Source: Alphaproteobacteria bacterium (GTDB lineage Bacteria; Pseudomonadota; Alphaproteobacteria; SMXS01). From it: a stretch of DNA of 44,860 nt. This document shows, in pieces, positions 10,252-44,398 of this stretch. The DNA is taken from the NCBI GenBank assembly GCA_016124315.1, contig WGNW01000061.1:1-44860 (forward strand), in the 5' to 3' direction. The position numbers were made by a program, and so were the translations under genes. The first letter of the stretch is position 1; the number at the start of each line of letters is the position of its first letter. Under the pieces are notes generated by a model. The model was not told where the DNA came from, made no database searches, and saw nothing but the letters and a program-made list of their open reading frames with translations.

Positions 10252-11517
10252 TCACGAGGCCAGCACGCTCAGCAGGTAGAGGCCGCAGCCCACCAGCCCG
10301 CCGACGATGGTGCCGTTCACCCGGATGAACTGCAGGTCGCGGCCCACGGCCAGTTCCGCGCGCTCGGTCAGCGTCGCGGCGTCCCAGCTGCGCACCACTT
10401 CGGTGATGAACCCGCCGATCTCGCGCCGCCACGGCACGATGCCGGTGCGCACCGCCTCTTCCAGCCAATGGTTGAAGCGACCGCGCATGTCGGCGGATTC
10501 GTTGAGGGCGCGCGCCACGGAGCGGACGCCGTCGGCGATGGTGGCGCGCAGGGGATCGGCCTCCGGCCCGCTGCCCTGGGCAATCGCCTCGCTCAGGTGA
10601 CGCCACAGACTGGCCAGGTAGGCCTGGGCCTGCGGGCTGTCGAGGATGCCGTCGATGAAGGCGCGCACCTGGGCCTGGGTGGCAGGACGGCTGCGCAGGT
10701 TCTCGATCAGCCGCTCGACCGCCTCGTCGAACTGCCGGCGCACCTTGTGGTCGCGGCCGCTCATGTCGGCGAGGAAGCCGGCCACGCCGGTGACCAGCGC
10801 GGTCGCGACCCCGCGGTCGACGGTCCGCGGGATCCACCAGCGGCTCTGCGCCTCCACCTGCTCGTAGATGGTGTCCTGGTTCTCCTCCAGGTAGCGCCGG
10901 GCGAGCACCAGCGTGTGGTCGAGCAGTCGGTGGTGGTGGTCGCTGTCGCGCAGCAGGGCGAGGATGTTGCCCAGCAGGACCGGCAGGTTGACGGCGTCGA
11001 TCTGGCGGCTCAGCGCCCGCTGGAAGAAGCCGCGCACCTCGGTGTCGCCCACGGTCGCCATCAGCCGGGGGATCGCCTTCAGGGCGCGGCCGGCGATGGC
11101 GTCGGCGACGGCCGGATCGCTCATCCAGCGTCCCAGCCGGCCGGCCACGTCCACCGAGCGGAGCTTGTCGGCGACCGTGTCGGGCTCGAGGAAGTGGCGC
11201 TCGACGAAGCCGCCCAGCCCCTCGCCGATCCGGTCCTTGTTGCGCGGCAGGATCGCCGTATGGGGGATGGGGATGCCGAGCGGATGGCGGAACAGGGCGG
11301 TGACGGCGGACCAGTCGGCCAGTCCGCCCACCATGGCGGCCTCGGCGCCGTTGTGCGCCAGGCCGCCCCAGAAGCCGCCGACGGGCCAGTGCAGCGTCGC
11401 GGCGTAGACGGCGGCCATGAGGAGCAGCAGCAGCGAGGCGCCGAGCCTGTAGCGGAACAGGGCCCGCCGCTGAGTGCTCTCCCAGAGCGCTGTCGGATCG
11501 GTCGTCAAAGCTGTCAT
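10252..11517 (-). CDS. DUF445 family membrane protein
   Basis: A 421-residue protein, start taken at the ATG whose product begins MTALTTDPTALWE. A transmembrane helix lies near 22-40 (GASLLLLLMAAVYAATLHWP). The signature of the family follows, GGFWGGLAHNGAEAAMVGGL then ADWSAVTALFRHPLGIPIPH. Next come helical repeats with WMSDPAVADAIAGRALKAIP and FLADMSGRDHKVRRQFDEAV. A final membrane span (GTIVGGLVGCGLYLLSVLAS) closes it, so the helical body is probably outside the lipid between two anchors. The biochemical role of DUF445 (YjiN-type) is not established. It is a single-gene unit convergent with the MipA-like gene. Confidence 0.85.
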   Translation of the reverse strand: MTALTTDPTALWESTQRRALFRYRLGASLLLLLMAAVYAATLHWPVGGFWGGLAHNGAEAAMVGGLADWSAVTALFRHPLGIPIPHTAILPRNKDRIGEGLGGFVERHFLEPDTVADKLRSVDVAGRLGRWMSDPAVADAIAGRALKAIPRLMATVGDTEVRGFFQRALSRQIDAVNLPVLLGNILALLRDSDHHHRLLDHTLVLARRYLEENQDTIYEQVEAQSRWWIPRTVDRGVATALVTGVAGFLADMSGRDHKVRRQFDEAVERLIENLRSRPATQAQVRAFIDGILDSPQAQAYLASLWRHLSEAIAQGSGPEADPLRATIADGVRSVARALNESADMRGRFNHWLEEAVRTGIVPWRREIGGFITEVVRSWDAATLTERAELAVGRDLQFIRVNGTIVGGLVGCGLYLLSVLAS

Positions 11518-11647
11518 CCGGGTCGTCTCACATGCGAAGTGCGGCGGAAGGCGCGGCAGCAGGGTGCCGCGAGGAGGTAAATCTTGCCGCCACCGAAAAT
11601 TTGGTTCATCCCAGATGCTAGCATGAGGCCACGCCGAGGAGTCGTCC

Positions 11648-11854
11648 GTGCAGGAAGTCGTCATTCCGTGTCCCGAGTGCCGCGCCGTCGCCTATAAGGC
11701 GCCGACGCGGCCTCCCACCATGGCGGAGATCGTGGGCACCGCATGCCCCGAGTGCGGCCACCGGCTGACCAAGGCCGAACTGCAGCGTCATTTCCAGGAG
11801 CAGATCCTCAAGGAGGCGGCTGCGCTGCTGGCCCGGATGCCCAAGCCCCGCTGA
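11648..11854 (+). CDS. Small zinc-ribbon protein
   Basis: A 68-residue protein with two CPEC knuckles, Cys8/Cys11 and Cys33/Cys36, separated by 21 residues, the second followed by GH. This is the spacing of a rubredoxin-like or zinc-ribbon fold. The C-terminal third (LTKAELQRHFQEQILKEAAA) is a charged helix. The start is GTG at 11648, with GAGGAG about 6-9 bases before it. It lies 77 bases before the halohydrin-dehalogenase-like gene on the same strand. I do not recognise a named family; binding of zinc and then of a protein or nucleic acid is the plainest reading. Confidence 0.65.
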   Translation: MQEVVIPCPECRAVAYKAPTRPPTMAEIVGTACPECGHRLTKAELQRHFQEQILKEAAALLARMPKPR

Positions 11855-11931
11855 GCCCGATTGGGCTGGACGCGGGGGAGGCGGCGGTGCCATACCGGTG
11901 CGGCCTGTTTTGACAGCCGGAAAGGGATGGC

Positions 11932-12666
11932 ATGCTGCTCAAGGACCGCAAGATACTCCTCACTTTCGCCACCCACTGGGCAGGTCCGGAAATCTGCAGC
12001 GCGCTGGTGCGGGAAGGCGCGTCGGTAGTTTGCCATGATCCTCATTTCGCCGATCCCGCCGCCGCGGAATCCTTCGCCGGCGGGCGGCGGGAAATCGCCA
12101 CGACCGCCGAGACCGAGCCGGCGGCGATCGCGTCGGCGGCCGTCGGGCAGCTGGGCCATCTGGACGTGGTGGTGAGCAACGACGCGTTCCCCGCGATCCG
12201 CGCGCCGGTGGACGAGGCCGATGCGCAGGACTTCCGCGACGCCCTCGAGGCGCTGGTGGTCTTCCCGTTCCGCATGGCCGGCGCCGTGGCGCCCCACATG
12301 AAGGAACGCAAGGCCGGCAAGATCCTGTTCCTGACCTCCGCCTCGGCGCTCAACGGCCTGGCCAACTATTCCATGTACGCCGCGGCGCGGGCCGGGGCCA
12401 ACGGGCTGGTCAAGTCGCTGGCCAAGGAGCTGGGCCGCCACAACATCCAGGTCAACGCCATCGCCTCCAACTACGTGGAGAACCCGGACTACTTCCCGCC
12501 CGAGCTGCTCGCCAACAAGGAAGCCTACGCCAAGATGGTGAAGAACATCCCGCTGGGCCGCCTGGCCAAGCCGGAGGAGGCGGCCGACCTGGTGGCGTTC
12601 TACGCCTCGGACCGCAGCGACTTCATCACCGGCAACGTCATGCCGTTCGCCGGCGGCTGGGCCTGA
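11932..12666 (+). CDS. Halohydrin dehalogenase-like SDR-fold protein
   Basis: A 244-residue SDR-fold protein without the dinucleotide-binding TGxxxGxG. In its place is T11-FATH-W16-A-G18, which matches the halohydrin dehalogenase nucleophile-pocket pattern T-x4-F-x-G with Trp for Phe. The second family signature, S-x12-Y-x3-R, is exact: Ser136, Tyr149, Arg153, so Arg replaces the SDR Lys. Further matches to HheC-like enzymes recalled from memory are VVCHDPHF, VSNDAF, MKERKAGKILFLTSAS, YAAARAGA and SNYVENPDYF. Such enzymes interconvert vicinal haloalcohols and epoxides without a cofactor. It is 77 bases downstream of the zinc-ribbon gene and ends 1 base from the convergent sulfotransferase. 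The alternative is a cofactor-free SDR relative of other function. Confidence 0.72.
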   Translation: MLLKDRKILLTFATHWAGPEICSALVREGASVVCHDPHFADPAAAESFAGGRREIATTAETEPAAIASAAVGQLGHLDVVVSNDAFPAIRAPVDEADAQDFRDALEALVVFPFRMAGAVAPHMKERKAGKILFLTSASALNGLANYSMYAAARAGANGLVKSLAKELGRHNIQVNAIASNYVENPDYFPPELLANKEAYAKMVKNIPLGRLAKPEEAADLVAFYASDRSDFITGNVMPFAGGWA

Positions 12667-12667
12667 G

Positions 12668-13594
12668 TCAGCCCCGGCCGCCCGCCGCCAGCCAGCGGGC
12701 GCAGTCCTCGCCCAACTCTGCGACGGCACGCGCCTCGTAGCGGGCGACGTCGTCCTGGGTGAGCACGTCGCGCCAGCGGCCGTTGGTGCCCTTGTTGATG
12801 AAGGTGGCCGCGCCGCCGTCCCAGAACGCGCCGCCCAGCGGCGCCGACATGGCGGCGTGACGCTTCATGTAGTCGAAGCCGCAATGTTCGACGATGGCCG
12901 GGAAGCGATCCTCGTCGACCGGGATGTCGAGGAACGCGGCTATCCGGCGGATTTCGCCTGGCATGTCGCGCTTCAGGTCGTCGAAATGCACCATCAGCAC
13001 GTTGGGCAGGTCGCGGACCGCCCACCACGAGCGCACGTTCTCCCAGAACGGCCAGAATGGATGGCCGTCCCGCTCCAGCCAGTCGAGGAAATACTGCCGG
13101 GTGGAGGCGGGCGGCTTCTCGATGGGCGGGCCGACGCGGCCGGGCGTGTCGTTGAGCGCCATGTACCAGGCGTCGTTGGCGTTGGCGTGGTGGTTGTACA
13201 TGCTCCACACCACGTCGCGCCCGTCGCGGCCGATGTAGAGGTACCGGGCCCTGGGCGAGAACACCAGCGCGTCCACCGGCAGGTGGGTTTTCAGGAAACG
13301 GCGGTGGGTCTGCGCCTCCAGCGCGGCGACTTTCACCTCGCGGGGCGGCACCCGCAGGTCGAGCCAGGGCGACAGCTCGGCCACGTTGACGTCCTCGGCG
13401 CCGTCGAACACGAGCTGGCCGACGATCTGCTGGGTCCAGGTGGTGCCCGACTTGGCGTAGGTGGCGACGACGATGTCGTCGTCGCGGAACGGAAAGCCGT
13501 TCCACATGGTCGAATCGAAATGGTGGTTGTGGAACTCCCGCCGCTTCTCCGGCCAGGCGACGTCCGCGGCCCGGGCTTGCGCCTCAGGCGGCAT
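12668..13594 (-). CDS. PAPS-dependent sulfotransferase
   Basis: A 308-residue cytosolic sulfotransferase of the Sulfotransfer_1 type. The 5'-phosphosulfate loop is YAKSGTTWTQ (46-55). The catalytic His is His104 in FLKTHLP. The 3'-phosphate motif is YIGRDGRDVVWSMYN (120-134). The late NKGTNGRWRDVLT resembles the PAPS-binding GxxGxWK segment. It transfers sulfate from PAPS to an alcohol or phenol. The start ATG at 13594 lies inside the last codons of the upstream gene, giving an 11-base overlap and probable translational coupling. A longer frame to 13879 runs through that gene and is arginine/serine-rich noise. The acceptor is unknown; a sterol-like or terpenoid alcohol is a guess from the region. 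Confidence 0.92.
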   Translation of the reverse strand: MPPEAQARAADVAWPEKRREFHNHHFDSTMWNGFPFRDDDIVVATYAKSGTTWTQQIVGQLVFDGAEDVNVAELSPWLDLRVPPREVKVAALEAQTHRRFLKTHLPVDALVFSPRARYLYIGRDGRDVVWSMYNHHANANDAWYMALNDTPGRVGPPIEKPPASTRQYFLDWLERDGHPFWPFWENVRSWWAVRDLPNVLMVHFDDLKRDMPGEIRRIAAFLDIPVDEDRFPAIVEHCGFDYMKRHAAMSAPLGGAFWDGGAATFINKGTNGRWRDVLTQDDVARYEARAVAELGEDCARWLAAGGRG

Positions 13595-14051
13595 CGGCGT
13601 GGGCGGCGAAGGCGGCGAAATTGTCCACGGTGGCGAAGCGGGCGTATTCCGCCTGCATCTCGGGCGTGAGGATCTCGAACATGAACAGGTTGTCGATCCA
13701 GAACTCGATGACGCGGAAGAACCGGTCCCCCCGCCAGCAGGTGCGCACCTGCCAGCCTTCCCGGTGGGCGACGGCGTGGACCTCCTCCTCGGTGATGTCG
13801 ACACCGATGGCGAGATGGGTCTCGATCGCCGCCGGGGCGTGCTGCACCTCGACGTCTGCTTCGTCGGCACCGGGAACAAGCACCTGCCCGGCGGGGTAGA
13901 ACTCGACGGCCGTGCCCTTGTCGTCGCCCTTCAGGGCGATGAACGAGCCGGGGAACACGGGGAACCGGAAGTGGCGGCCGTTCCACAGTTCGGCCAGGGC
14001 GCGCGCCGCCGTCTCGGGGTCGCGCGAGGGAAACGACGCATGGTAGAGCAC
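13584..14051 (-). CDS. Conserved-looking protein of unknown function, coupled to sulfotransferase
   Basis: A 155-residue protein starting at GTG 14051, with GGAGG exactly 6 bases before it. It begins MLYHASFPSRDPETAARALA and has FRFPVFPGSFIALKGDDKGT, then a strand-rich middle and a C-terminal helix-rich part (FWIDNLFMFEILTPEMQAEY). No signal peptide or membrane span is present. The layout, with a start like a VOC module and an ITEEEVHAVAHREGWQVR helix, could be a diverged glyoxalase-type fold. I do not recognise the family. Its 11-base overlap with the sulfotransferase start suggests that the two proteins work together. Confidence 0.7.
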   Translation of the reverse strand: MLYHASFPSRDPETAARALAELWNGRHFRFPVFPGSFIALKGDDKGTAVEFYPAGQVLVPGADEADVEVQHAPAAIETHLAIGVDITEEEVHAVAHREGWQVRTCWRGDRFFRVIEFWIDNLFMFEILTPEMQAEYARFATVDNFAAFAAHADAA

Positions 14052-43219: not shown

Positions 43220-44398
43220 ATGACCGTCGAACCATTCCAGGTGGCCGTGCCGCAGGCGCGCGTCGAGGATCTGCACCGCCGGCTCCGGGCCACGAACTGG
43301 CCCCACGACATGGCCAATGACGACTGGCGCTACGGCGCCAACGGCGACTACATGCGCCGCCTGGTGGACTACTGGCTGAACGGCTACGACTGGCGGGCGC
43401 AGGAGGCCGCCATCAACGGCTTCAGCCACTACCGGACCGAGGTCGACGGCGTTCCCCTCCACTTCATCCGCGAGCCCGGCAAGGGGCCGAACCCGGTCCC
43501 GCTGGTGATGACCCATGGCTGGCCGTGGACGTTCTGGGACTATCACGAGCTGATCCGGCCGCTGGCCGACCCGGCGGCCTTCGGCGGCGACCCGGCGGAC
43601 GCGTTCGAGGTCATCGTCATGTCCATGCCCGGCTTCGGCTTTTCGTCGCCGCTGAAGCGGGCGGGAATGAATGCGTGGCGCGCGGCCGATCCCATCCACC
43701 GGCTGATGACCCAGGTGCTGGGCTTCGAGCGCTACGGCGCCCAAGGCGGCGACTGGGGTGCCACGACGACGGCACAGCTCGGCCACAGGTACGCAGACAG
43801 CGTCATCGGCATCCACCTCACCAGCACGCCCCGGCTCGACTACTGGAACAACCAGCGGCCGTGGGACGTGACCGCCGGCAAGCTGGTGCCCGACGACCTG
43901 CCGGCGGAGACGCGGGCGAAGTATCTGGACATCCAGCGCCGGATCGCCAGCCACGTCGCCGTGCACATGCTGGACCCGCAGACCCTGGCCTACGCGCTGC
44001 ACGATTCGCCGGTCGGACTGCTGGCCTGGCTGGTGGAGCGGCGCCGCGCCTGGAGCGCCAACGACGGTGACGTGGAGCAGGCGTTCAGCCGCGACTTCCT
44101 GCTGACCACGACCTCGATCTACTGGTTCACCGATACTTTCGTGACCTCGGCGCGGCTCTACGCCGAGGCGGGCAAGGACCCGTGGCAGCCCTCCCATTCG
44201 GGGAGGCCGCTGGTCCCGGTGCCGACCGGGCTTACCTACATGGCCCACGACGTGGGCCGCAGCCTGTCCGCCGAGGCGGAGAAGCAGTTCGACGTCCGCT
44301 ACCGGAAGGAGCATCCCATGGGCGGGCATTTCGCCGCCGCCGAGGAACCGGAAGCGGTGGTGGAGGATATCAGGGCGACATTTCGGCCCTTGCGATAG
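43220..44398 (+). CDS. Epoxide hydrolase (EHN plus alpha/beta hydrolase)
   Basis: A 392-residue protein of the microsomal-type epoxide hydrolase family. The N-terminal EHN domain (about 1-110) begins FQVAVPQARVEDLHRRLRAT. The alpha/beta hydrolase core has the oxyanion segment MTHGWPWTFWDYHEL, the nucleophile Asp in AQGGDWGATTT, and the catalytic His in EHPMGGHFAAAEEPEA. Tyr residues in the lid (TTSIYWFTDTF) probably open the epoxide. It would turn an epoxide into a diol. GGGGGAG precedes the ATG. The enoyl-CoA hydratase gene follows after 9 bases, so both may belong to one degradation pathway. Confidence 0.93.
   Translation: MTVEPFQVAVPQARVEDLHRRLRATNWPHDMANDDWRYGANGDYMRRLVDYWLNGYDWRAQEAAINGFSHYRTEVDGVPLHFIREPGKGPNPVPLVMTHGWPWTFWDYHELIRPLADPAAFGGDPADAFEVIVMSMPGFGFSSPLKRAGMNAWRAADPIHRLMTQVLGFERYGAQGGDWGATTTAQLGHRYADSVIGIHLTSTPRLDYWNNQRPWDVTAGKLVPDDLPAETRAKYLDIQRRIASHVAVHMLDPQTLAYALHDSPVGLLAWLVERRRAWSANDGDVEQAFSRDFLLTTTSIYWFTDTFVTSARLYAEAGKDPWQPSHSGRPLVPVPTGLTYMAHDVGRSLSAEAEKQFDVRYRKEHPMGGHFAAAEEPEAVVEDIRATFRPLR

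Follow-up and report, generated by a model that had tools for sequence, protein, structure and literature searches.

A halohydrin dehalogenase-type protein with tryptophan at the aromatic position of motif 1 in an alphaproteobacterium

The gene and its surroundings

The window, i.e. the whole stretch of 44,860 nucleotides from Alphaproteobacteria bacterium that was analysed (contig WGNW01000061.1), contains an intact open reading frame for a halohydrin dehalogenase (HHDH)-type protein, with an ATG start and 244 codons followed by a stop codon. Its third-position G+C of 0.92 matches that of the neighbouring genes, a coding signature. The features of the locus are listed in Table 1.

Table 1. 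Coordinates of the HHDH-type gene, its motifs and selected neighbours in the window
Feature	Position	Strand	Remarks
DUF445 protein gene	10252..11664	-	upstream, divergent; also present in 5/5 congeners; context
Purine-rich GGAAAGGGA 5' of the HHDH ATG	11919-11927		found by eye from the sequence
HHDH-type gene	11932..12666	+	stop codon included; 244 aa
Motif 1, T11-F-A-T-H-W16-A-G18	11962..11985	+	aligned with HheC T7-x4-F12-x-G14
TGG codon of Trp16	11977..11979	+	aligned with HheC Phe12; TGG in 6/6 gene-bearing genomes of the genus
Motif 2, catalytic S136-x12-Y149-x3-R153	12337..12390	+	exact motif; alignment
Putative halide-loop equivalent, S179-N-Y-V-E-N-P-D-Y-F188	12466..12495	+	aligned with HheC P175-Y187; role by analogy with HheC
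Sulfotransferase gene	12668..13879	-	downstream, convergent; context
Epoxide-hydrolase-type gene (EHN domain)	43220..44398	+	31 kb downstream; context

The gene order Rieske oxygenase, SnoaL-like, MipA, DUF445 (reverse strand), HHDH, sulfotransferase (reverse strand) is found in all five congeners, and the glyoxalase-like gene was found in four of them. The window and two of the five congeners have the sulfotransferase gene adjoining the HHDH gene; in the other three it is 1.4-1.7 kb away. Between the two genes there is nothing of note in two congeners, and differing genes in three: a NAMPT-like gene in G002 and, as judged by eye, small ORFs in G006 and ORFs resembling acetyltransferase, glyoxalase and cupin genes in G003. 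The NAMPT-like gene (L009, 2254-3645) is located 18 bases past the HHDH stop codon on the same strand, a place where the other congeners have a different gene or none. Since the intervening genes vary among congeners, no co-directional partner is conserved; the HHDH gene is probably transcribed alone. An inverted repeat was looked for 3' of the gene and not found. For two further genera of the family, the HHDH gene is the sole match in the stretches compared (>40% identity, E<=1e-15), one of these stretches ending 240 bases past it. A cytochrome P450 gene (6548-7855) adjoins the conserved Rieske oxygenase gene in the window; at the corresponding position in the five congeners no such gene was found.

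Given the gene order conserved in congeners, the HHDH gene looks like one that has been kept vertically on the chromosome. A recent, plasmid-borne catabolic gene is unsupported, as the order is kept in five congeners; a plasmid collection yielded only two matches at E<=1e-25, which are 35-36% identical. No dehalogenation operon was recognised around the gene, nor any haloalcohol- or halide-related gene beside it, in the window and the five congeners. Comparison of the window gene with four congeners (NG86) gave dN values of 0.14-0.17 and dS values of 0.49-0.53, with dN/dS roughly 0.26-0.34; the gene is under purifying selection.

The 22 largest neighbour clusters of 62 further loci (L029-L090, mostly Reyranella-type) contain no dehalogenation partner. 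These clusters, assigned by eye, are presumably ubiE/ubiB-, coaBC- and dut-like genes and a peptide ABC transporter, i.e. of housekeeping or transport-like character. In many Reyranella-type loci (e.g. L032 and L042) the HHDH gene was seen by eye beside ubiE/ubiB-like and other housekeeping-like genes, a setting that points to a native role and not to the degradation of pollutants.

Relationship to halohydrin dehalogenases and SDR proteins

The preliminary description had read the motifs T-x4-W-x-G and S-x12-Y-x3-R (Ser136, Tyr149, Arg153) from the sequence, and both are exact in the translation. The protein therefore carries HHDH motif 2, and departs from the published motif 1 (T-x4-[F/Y]-x-G) by Trp16 at the F/Y place, with Thr and Gly retained. 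The strict HHDH fingerprint thus fails at one residue, the other tested defining features being present. The cofactor pattern of short-chain dehydrogenases (SDRs), T-[GA]-x3-[GA]-x-G, had been described as missing, and a pattern check of the 244 residues bears this out; nor does the protein have the classical SDR combination of this motif (T-G/A-x3-G/A-x-G) with S-x-Y-x3-K. As a control, the protein was compared with its own genome, where 74 other places match at E<=0.001; 47 of these were fetched, giving 42 distinct SDR relatives. The SDR pattern is present in 36 of the 42, the triad columns read S/Y/K in 36 and S/Y/R in one, and none of the 42 has both HHDH motifs. The triad Ser, Tyr and Arg is invariant across the 46 aligned sequences chosen from the window and the loci.

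Among solved structures, the best bit scores are with 6a41 (267.9), HheC (4ixt, 164.4), HheA (144.1), HheD2 (138.2), HheD8 (132.9) and HheB (118.7), compared to 97.8 for the top ordinary SDR. Three entries labelled halohydrin dehalogenase or similar (7wkq, 8h8y and 8hqp), which we take to be G-type HHDHs, score no higher against the window protein than ordinary SDRs. An AlphaFold2 model of the monomer, predicted from the alignment of the 46 sequences, has a mean pLDDT of 94.2 and a pTM of 0.91. A Foldseek search with this model ranked 6a41 first (TM 0.96, 52% identity), followed by HheC (TM 0.91-0.92, 38-40% identity), with FabG-type SDRs from rank 15 onwards at TM values of about 0.86-0.89. 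The likeness to HheC noted in the preliminary description is borne out by these scores, and its proposed structural check turned out in favour of HHDHs, as these are the nearest structures and the glycine-rich NAD motif is absent from the sequence. The model, the Foldseek ranking and the motif check agree on an HHDH fold without a glycine-rich NAD site. As SDRs and HHDHs share their fold, the family assignment rests on sequence, motifs and tree, and not on the fold alone.

Maximum-likelihood analysis of 101 sequences separates 92 HHDH-like rows, including the window protein, from nine SDR-type rows (100/100), with long branches at the join of the two groups, as flagged by a tool warning. The window protein thus falls among characterised HHDHs, separate from the SDRs. 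Together with five other proteins of its genus it forms a clade, hereafter the W clade (100/100), which is joined by the proteins of two further genera in the family (99/94) and lies in a main branch with HheA, HheC and 6a41 (98/90). HheB, HheD2 and HheD8 are in the other main branch (100/97). The HHDH references in the tree were HheA, HheB, HheC, HheD2, HheD8 and 6a41; because E-, F- and G-type references were absent, no subtype letter is claimed. The identity proposed earlier holds in that the protein is placed among HHDHs with Arg-type sisters and not with Lys-type SDRs: it is a relative of HHDHs and not an ordinary SDR.

The closest known system is 6a41, annotated as 'Dehalogenation enzyme', which has the same length of 244 residues and the same triad, and is colinear with the window protein from end to end. 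Its loop S-N-Y-V-E-N-P-D-Y-F-P is that of the window protein, whereas its motif 1 (T-N-V-E-K-F-A-G) has Phe in place of Trp, and Asn after the Thr. Its sequence was placed among Reyranella rows in the tree. HheC of Agrobacterium radiobacter AD1 (1pwx, 5kwe and others) shares the fold, the triad and the Asn-Tyr pair of the halide loop at about 39% identity, but has a three-residue loop insertion and a C-terminal tail (chain of 254 aa, with the match ending at 243) that are both absent from the window protein. HheA (1zmo, 4z9f) belongs to the same main branch (35% identity, TM 0.91), but has Phe in motif 1 and sits on a long branch. HheB, HheD2 and HheD8 (4zd6, 7b73 and 8xxb) have the HHDH fold and triad, but a shorter first half and lower TM values (0.81-0.83).

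Distribution of the tryptophan and composition of the halide pocket

Relatives were collected from near genomes (matches in 14 of 60 at E<=1e-30), from a genome collection (the best 80 of 89 relatives), from the order (matches in 8 of 10 genomes at E<=1e-40), and from samples of the class (49 of 385 genomes at E<=1e-35) and the phylum (4 of 398 at the same cut-off); these samples overlap. The earlier statement that the family is small needs qualifying for this class, where it is not very small, although few genomes of the phylum sample have a match. This gave 142 HHDH-like rows, nine SDR-type rows being excluded; five rows lack the aromatic position of motif 1, and the rest represent 126 distinct sequences. 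At the aromatic place these have Phe (104), Tyr (13), Trp (6), Pro, Ser or Gly (one each), so that Phe or Tyr stands in 117 of the 126, among them the sequences of two further genera in the same family; since Reyranella-type sequences dominate and rows were found by similarity to the query, these proportions are not family-wide frequencies. The six Trp sequences all come from the window's genus, of which seven genomes were sampled and six bear the gene, each with Trp; in the seventh, which is 78% complete, no HHDH match was found at the cut-offs used. The five congener proteins are 74.6-80.3% identical to the window protein, and both the TGG codon and the H-W-A-G stretch recur in their genomes, which rules out a sequencing error at the Trp codon. 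The Trp is common to the genus, most simply explained on the tree by a single origin. The variant noted at first in one protein is therefore genus-wide and outside the published F/Y motif.

Pro, Ser and Gly at the aromatic place were found in three second copies with a changed triad S-Y-Q. These belong to tandem HHDH-like pairs at L127, L130 and L134 (three genomes of family f97), in which copy 2 combines S-Y-Q with Pro, Gly or Ser at this place, as if the second copies had changed in function or were non-catalytic. In three other HHDH-like sequences (L021, L138 and L141) the place of the catalytic Tyr is taken by Pro or Ala (S-P-R, S-A-R), with Arg retained. The Thr of motif 1 is replaced by Ser at L079, L088, L089, L099, L108 and L112, and by Ile at L127.

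Alignment with HheC indicates which residues of the halide pocket differ. N176, Y177, S132, Y145 and R149 of HheC are retained in the window protein, whereas F12 is replaced by W16, N8 by F12 (Ser in one congener), and P175 by S179 (Ala in one congener). The alignment further shows L143 for W139 and R90 for F86 of HheC. At the N8 place, 79 of 86 other HHDH-like rows in the tree have Asn, Gln, Asp or His, and one has Phe. Ser is also present at the P175 place of Reyranella-type proteins which have retained the Phe, so it is not specific to the W clade.

F12 of HheC is in direct contact with the halide (PMC11976700), suggesting that Trp would alter the halide pocket. The passages available from that study give the natural motif 1 as F/Y and mention natural variation solely at the Thr. 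They describe saturation mutagenesis of F12 in which all variants but F12M and F12R were made, nearly all of them soluble; G, A, C, S, Q, H and Y variants are named as active in both directions, and replacement by Tyr increased both activity and stability. In HheG, significant activity was kept by Y18F alone, and a few active Y18 mutants in whole cells are noted as reported by others (PMC11976700). F12W is missing from the HheC mutants named as active in these passages, and for that reason a natural Trp is unexpected. Passages of the HHDH literature (PMC11976700, PMC4989007, PMC11536340) hold no report of Trp at this place. On the evidence of the sequences compared here, what is new is that the Trp is genus-wide and is accompanied by an unusual residue at a nearby place in the pocket.

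Predicted activity and its alternatives

The protein is best described as a member of the HHDH clade whose motif 1 is a variant. We consider it likely that it is a cofactor-independent HHDH of the HheA/HheC branch, in which Trp takes the place of Phe/Tyr as the aromatic wall of the pocket; most likely it is active and its nucleophile pocket is reshaped. By homology with HheC, Ser136 and Tyr149 would hold the hydroxyl group of a vicinal haloalcohol, Arg153 would lower the pKa of Tyr149, which would take the proton, and the alkoxide would close to the epoxide. T11, W16, G18 and the N180-Y181 loop would line the pocket that receives the leaving halide, and the reaction would be reversible with small anions. 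The residues at positions 12 and 179 (HheC N8 and P175) may help to fit the larger Trp. The epoxide could be drained by epoxide hydrolases, for which the same genome has four EHN-type matches (one of them in the window) and two LEH-type matches. Arguments against this main reading are the F/Y required by the published motif, the mutagenesis results on HheC and HheG given above, the lack of a recognised haloalcohol- or halide-related gene beside the HHDH gene and of a conserved co-directional neighbour, and the distance of 31 kb to the epoxide hydrolase gene of the window. The chemistry, pocket geometry and substrate of the Trp enzyme are here inferred.

An alternative which we regard as rather unlikely is that the enzyme retains the HHDH fold while the Trp pocket no longer takes halide, the Ser-Tyr-Arg chemistry acting on epoxides or alcohols and the physiological partner being a different anion, water or an intramolecular leaving group. 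Such a change would be in line with the fixation of Trp in the genus together with Phe/Ser at the position of HheC N8, with a chromosomal location in conserved synteny where no dehalogenation operon was recognised, and with the lack of Trp among the F12 mutants named as active in the available passages of PMC11976700; passages of a 2016 review also state that other physiological functions of HHDHs cannot be excluded (PMC4989007). However, the catalytic residues and the N180-Y181 pair are retained, Trp is itself aromatic and could still pack on a halide, and F12 of HheC tolerates several residues (PMC11976700, in the same passages). We tentatively envisage, with little confidence, that the pocket was remodelled throughout the genus (Trp at the F12 place, Phe/Ser at N8, Ser/Ala at P175), leading to another nucleophile range or a non-halide reaction that would have stayed hidden by the F/Y fingerprint.

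It is very improbable that the gene is a non-catalytic or decaying copy. A changed triad does occur elsewhere in the class, in six of the 126 distinct HHDH-like sequences (three S-Y-Q, two S-P-R and one S-A-R), but here the frame and triad are intact, the dN/dS is low as given above, and the gene is kept in six species. Least credible of all is an ordinary SDR, dependent on NAD(P), whose motifs have come to resemble those of HHDHs by drift. Pfam gives SDR models only, the best 25 of 212 NCBIfam matches are SDR models, each under its curated cut-off, and the fold is common to both groups, with FabG-type entries at TM 0.86-0.89. An ordinary SDR is nevertheless ruled out by the tree, by the motifs (Arg and not Lys in the sister sequences, no glycine-rich motif) and by the much higher scores with HHDH structures.

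HHDHs are used as biocatalysts and, according to passages of PMC4989007, have been mined with a two-motif filter. Searches that apply the published T-x4-F/Y-x-G fingerprint would pass over the W clade, and a natural clade outside the filter implies that the search space for HHDHs has been cut too narrow. The protein clearly belongs to the family but differs at a residue central to function, a change that mutagenesis of a related enzyme, as far as the passages of PMC11976700 describe it, would not predict. Since the aromatic residue of HheC touches the halide and its change to Tyr raised activity and stability, a natural Trp background would test how this wall sets the choice of nucleophile. 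The conserved chromosomal setting may also offer a handle on the role of HHDHs in cells without a haloalcohol operon.
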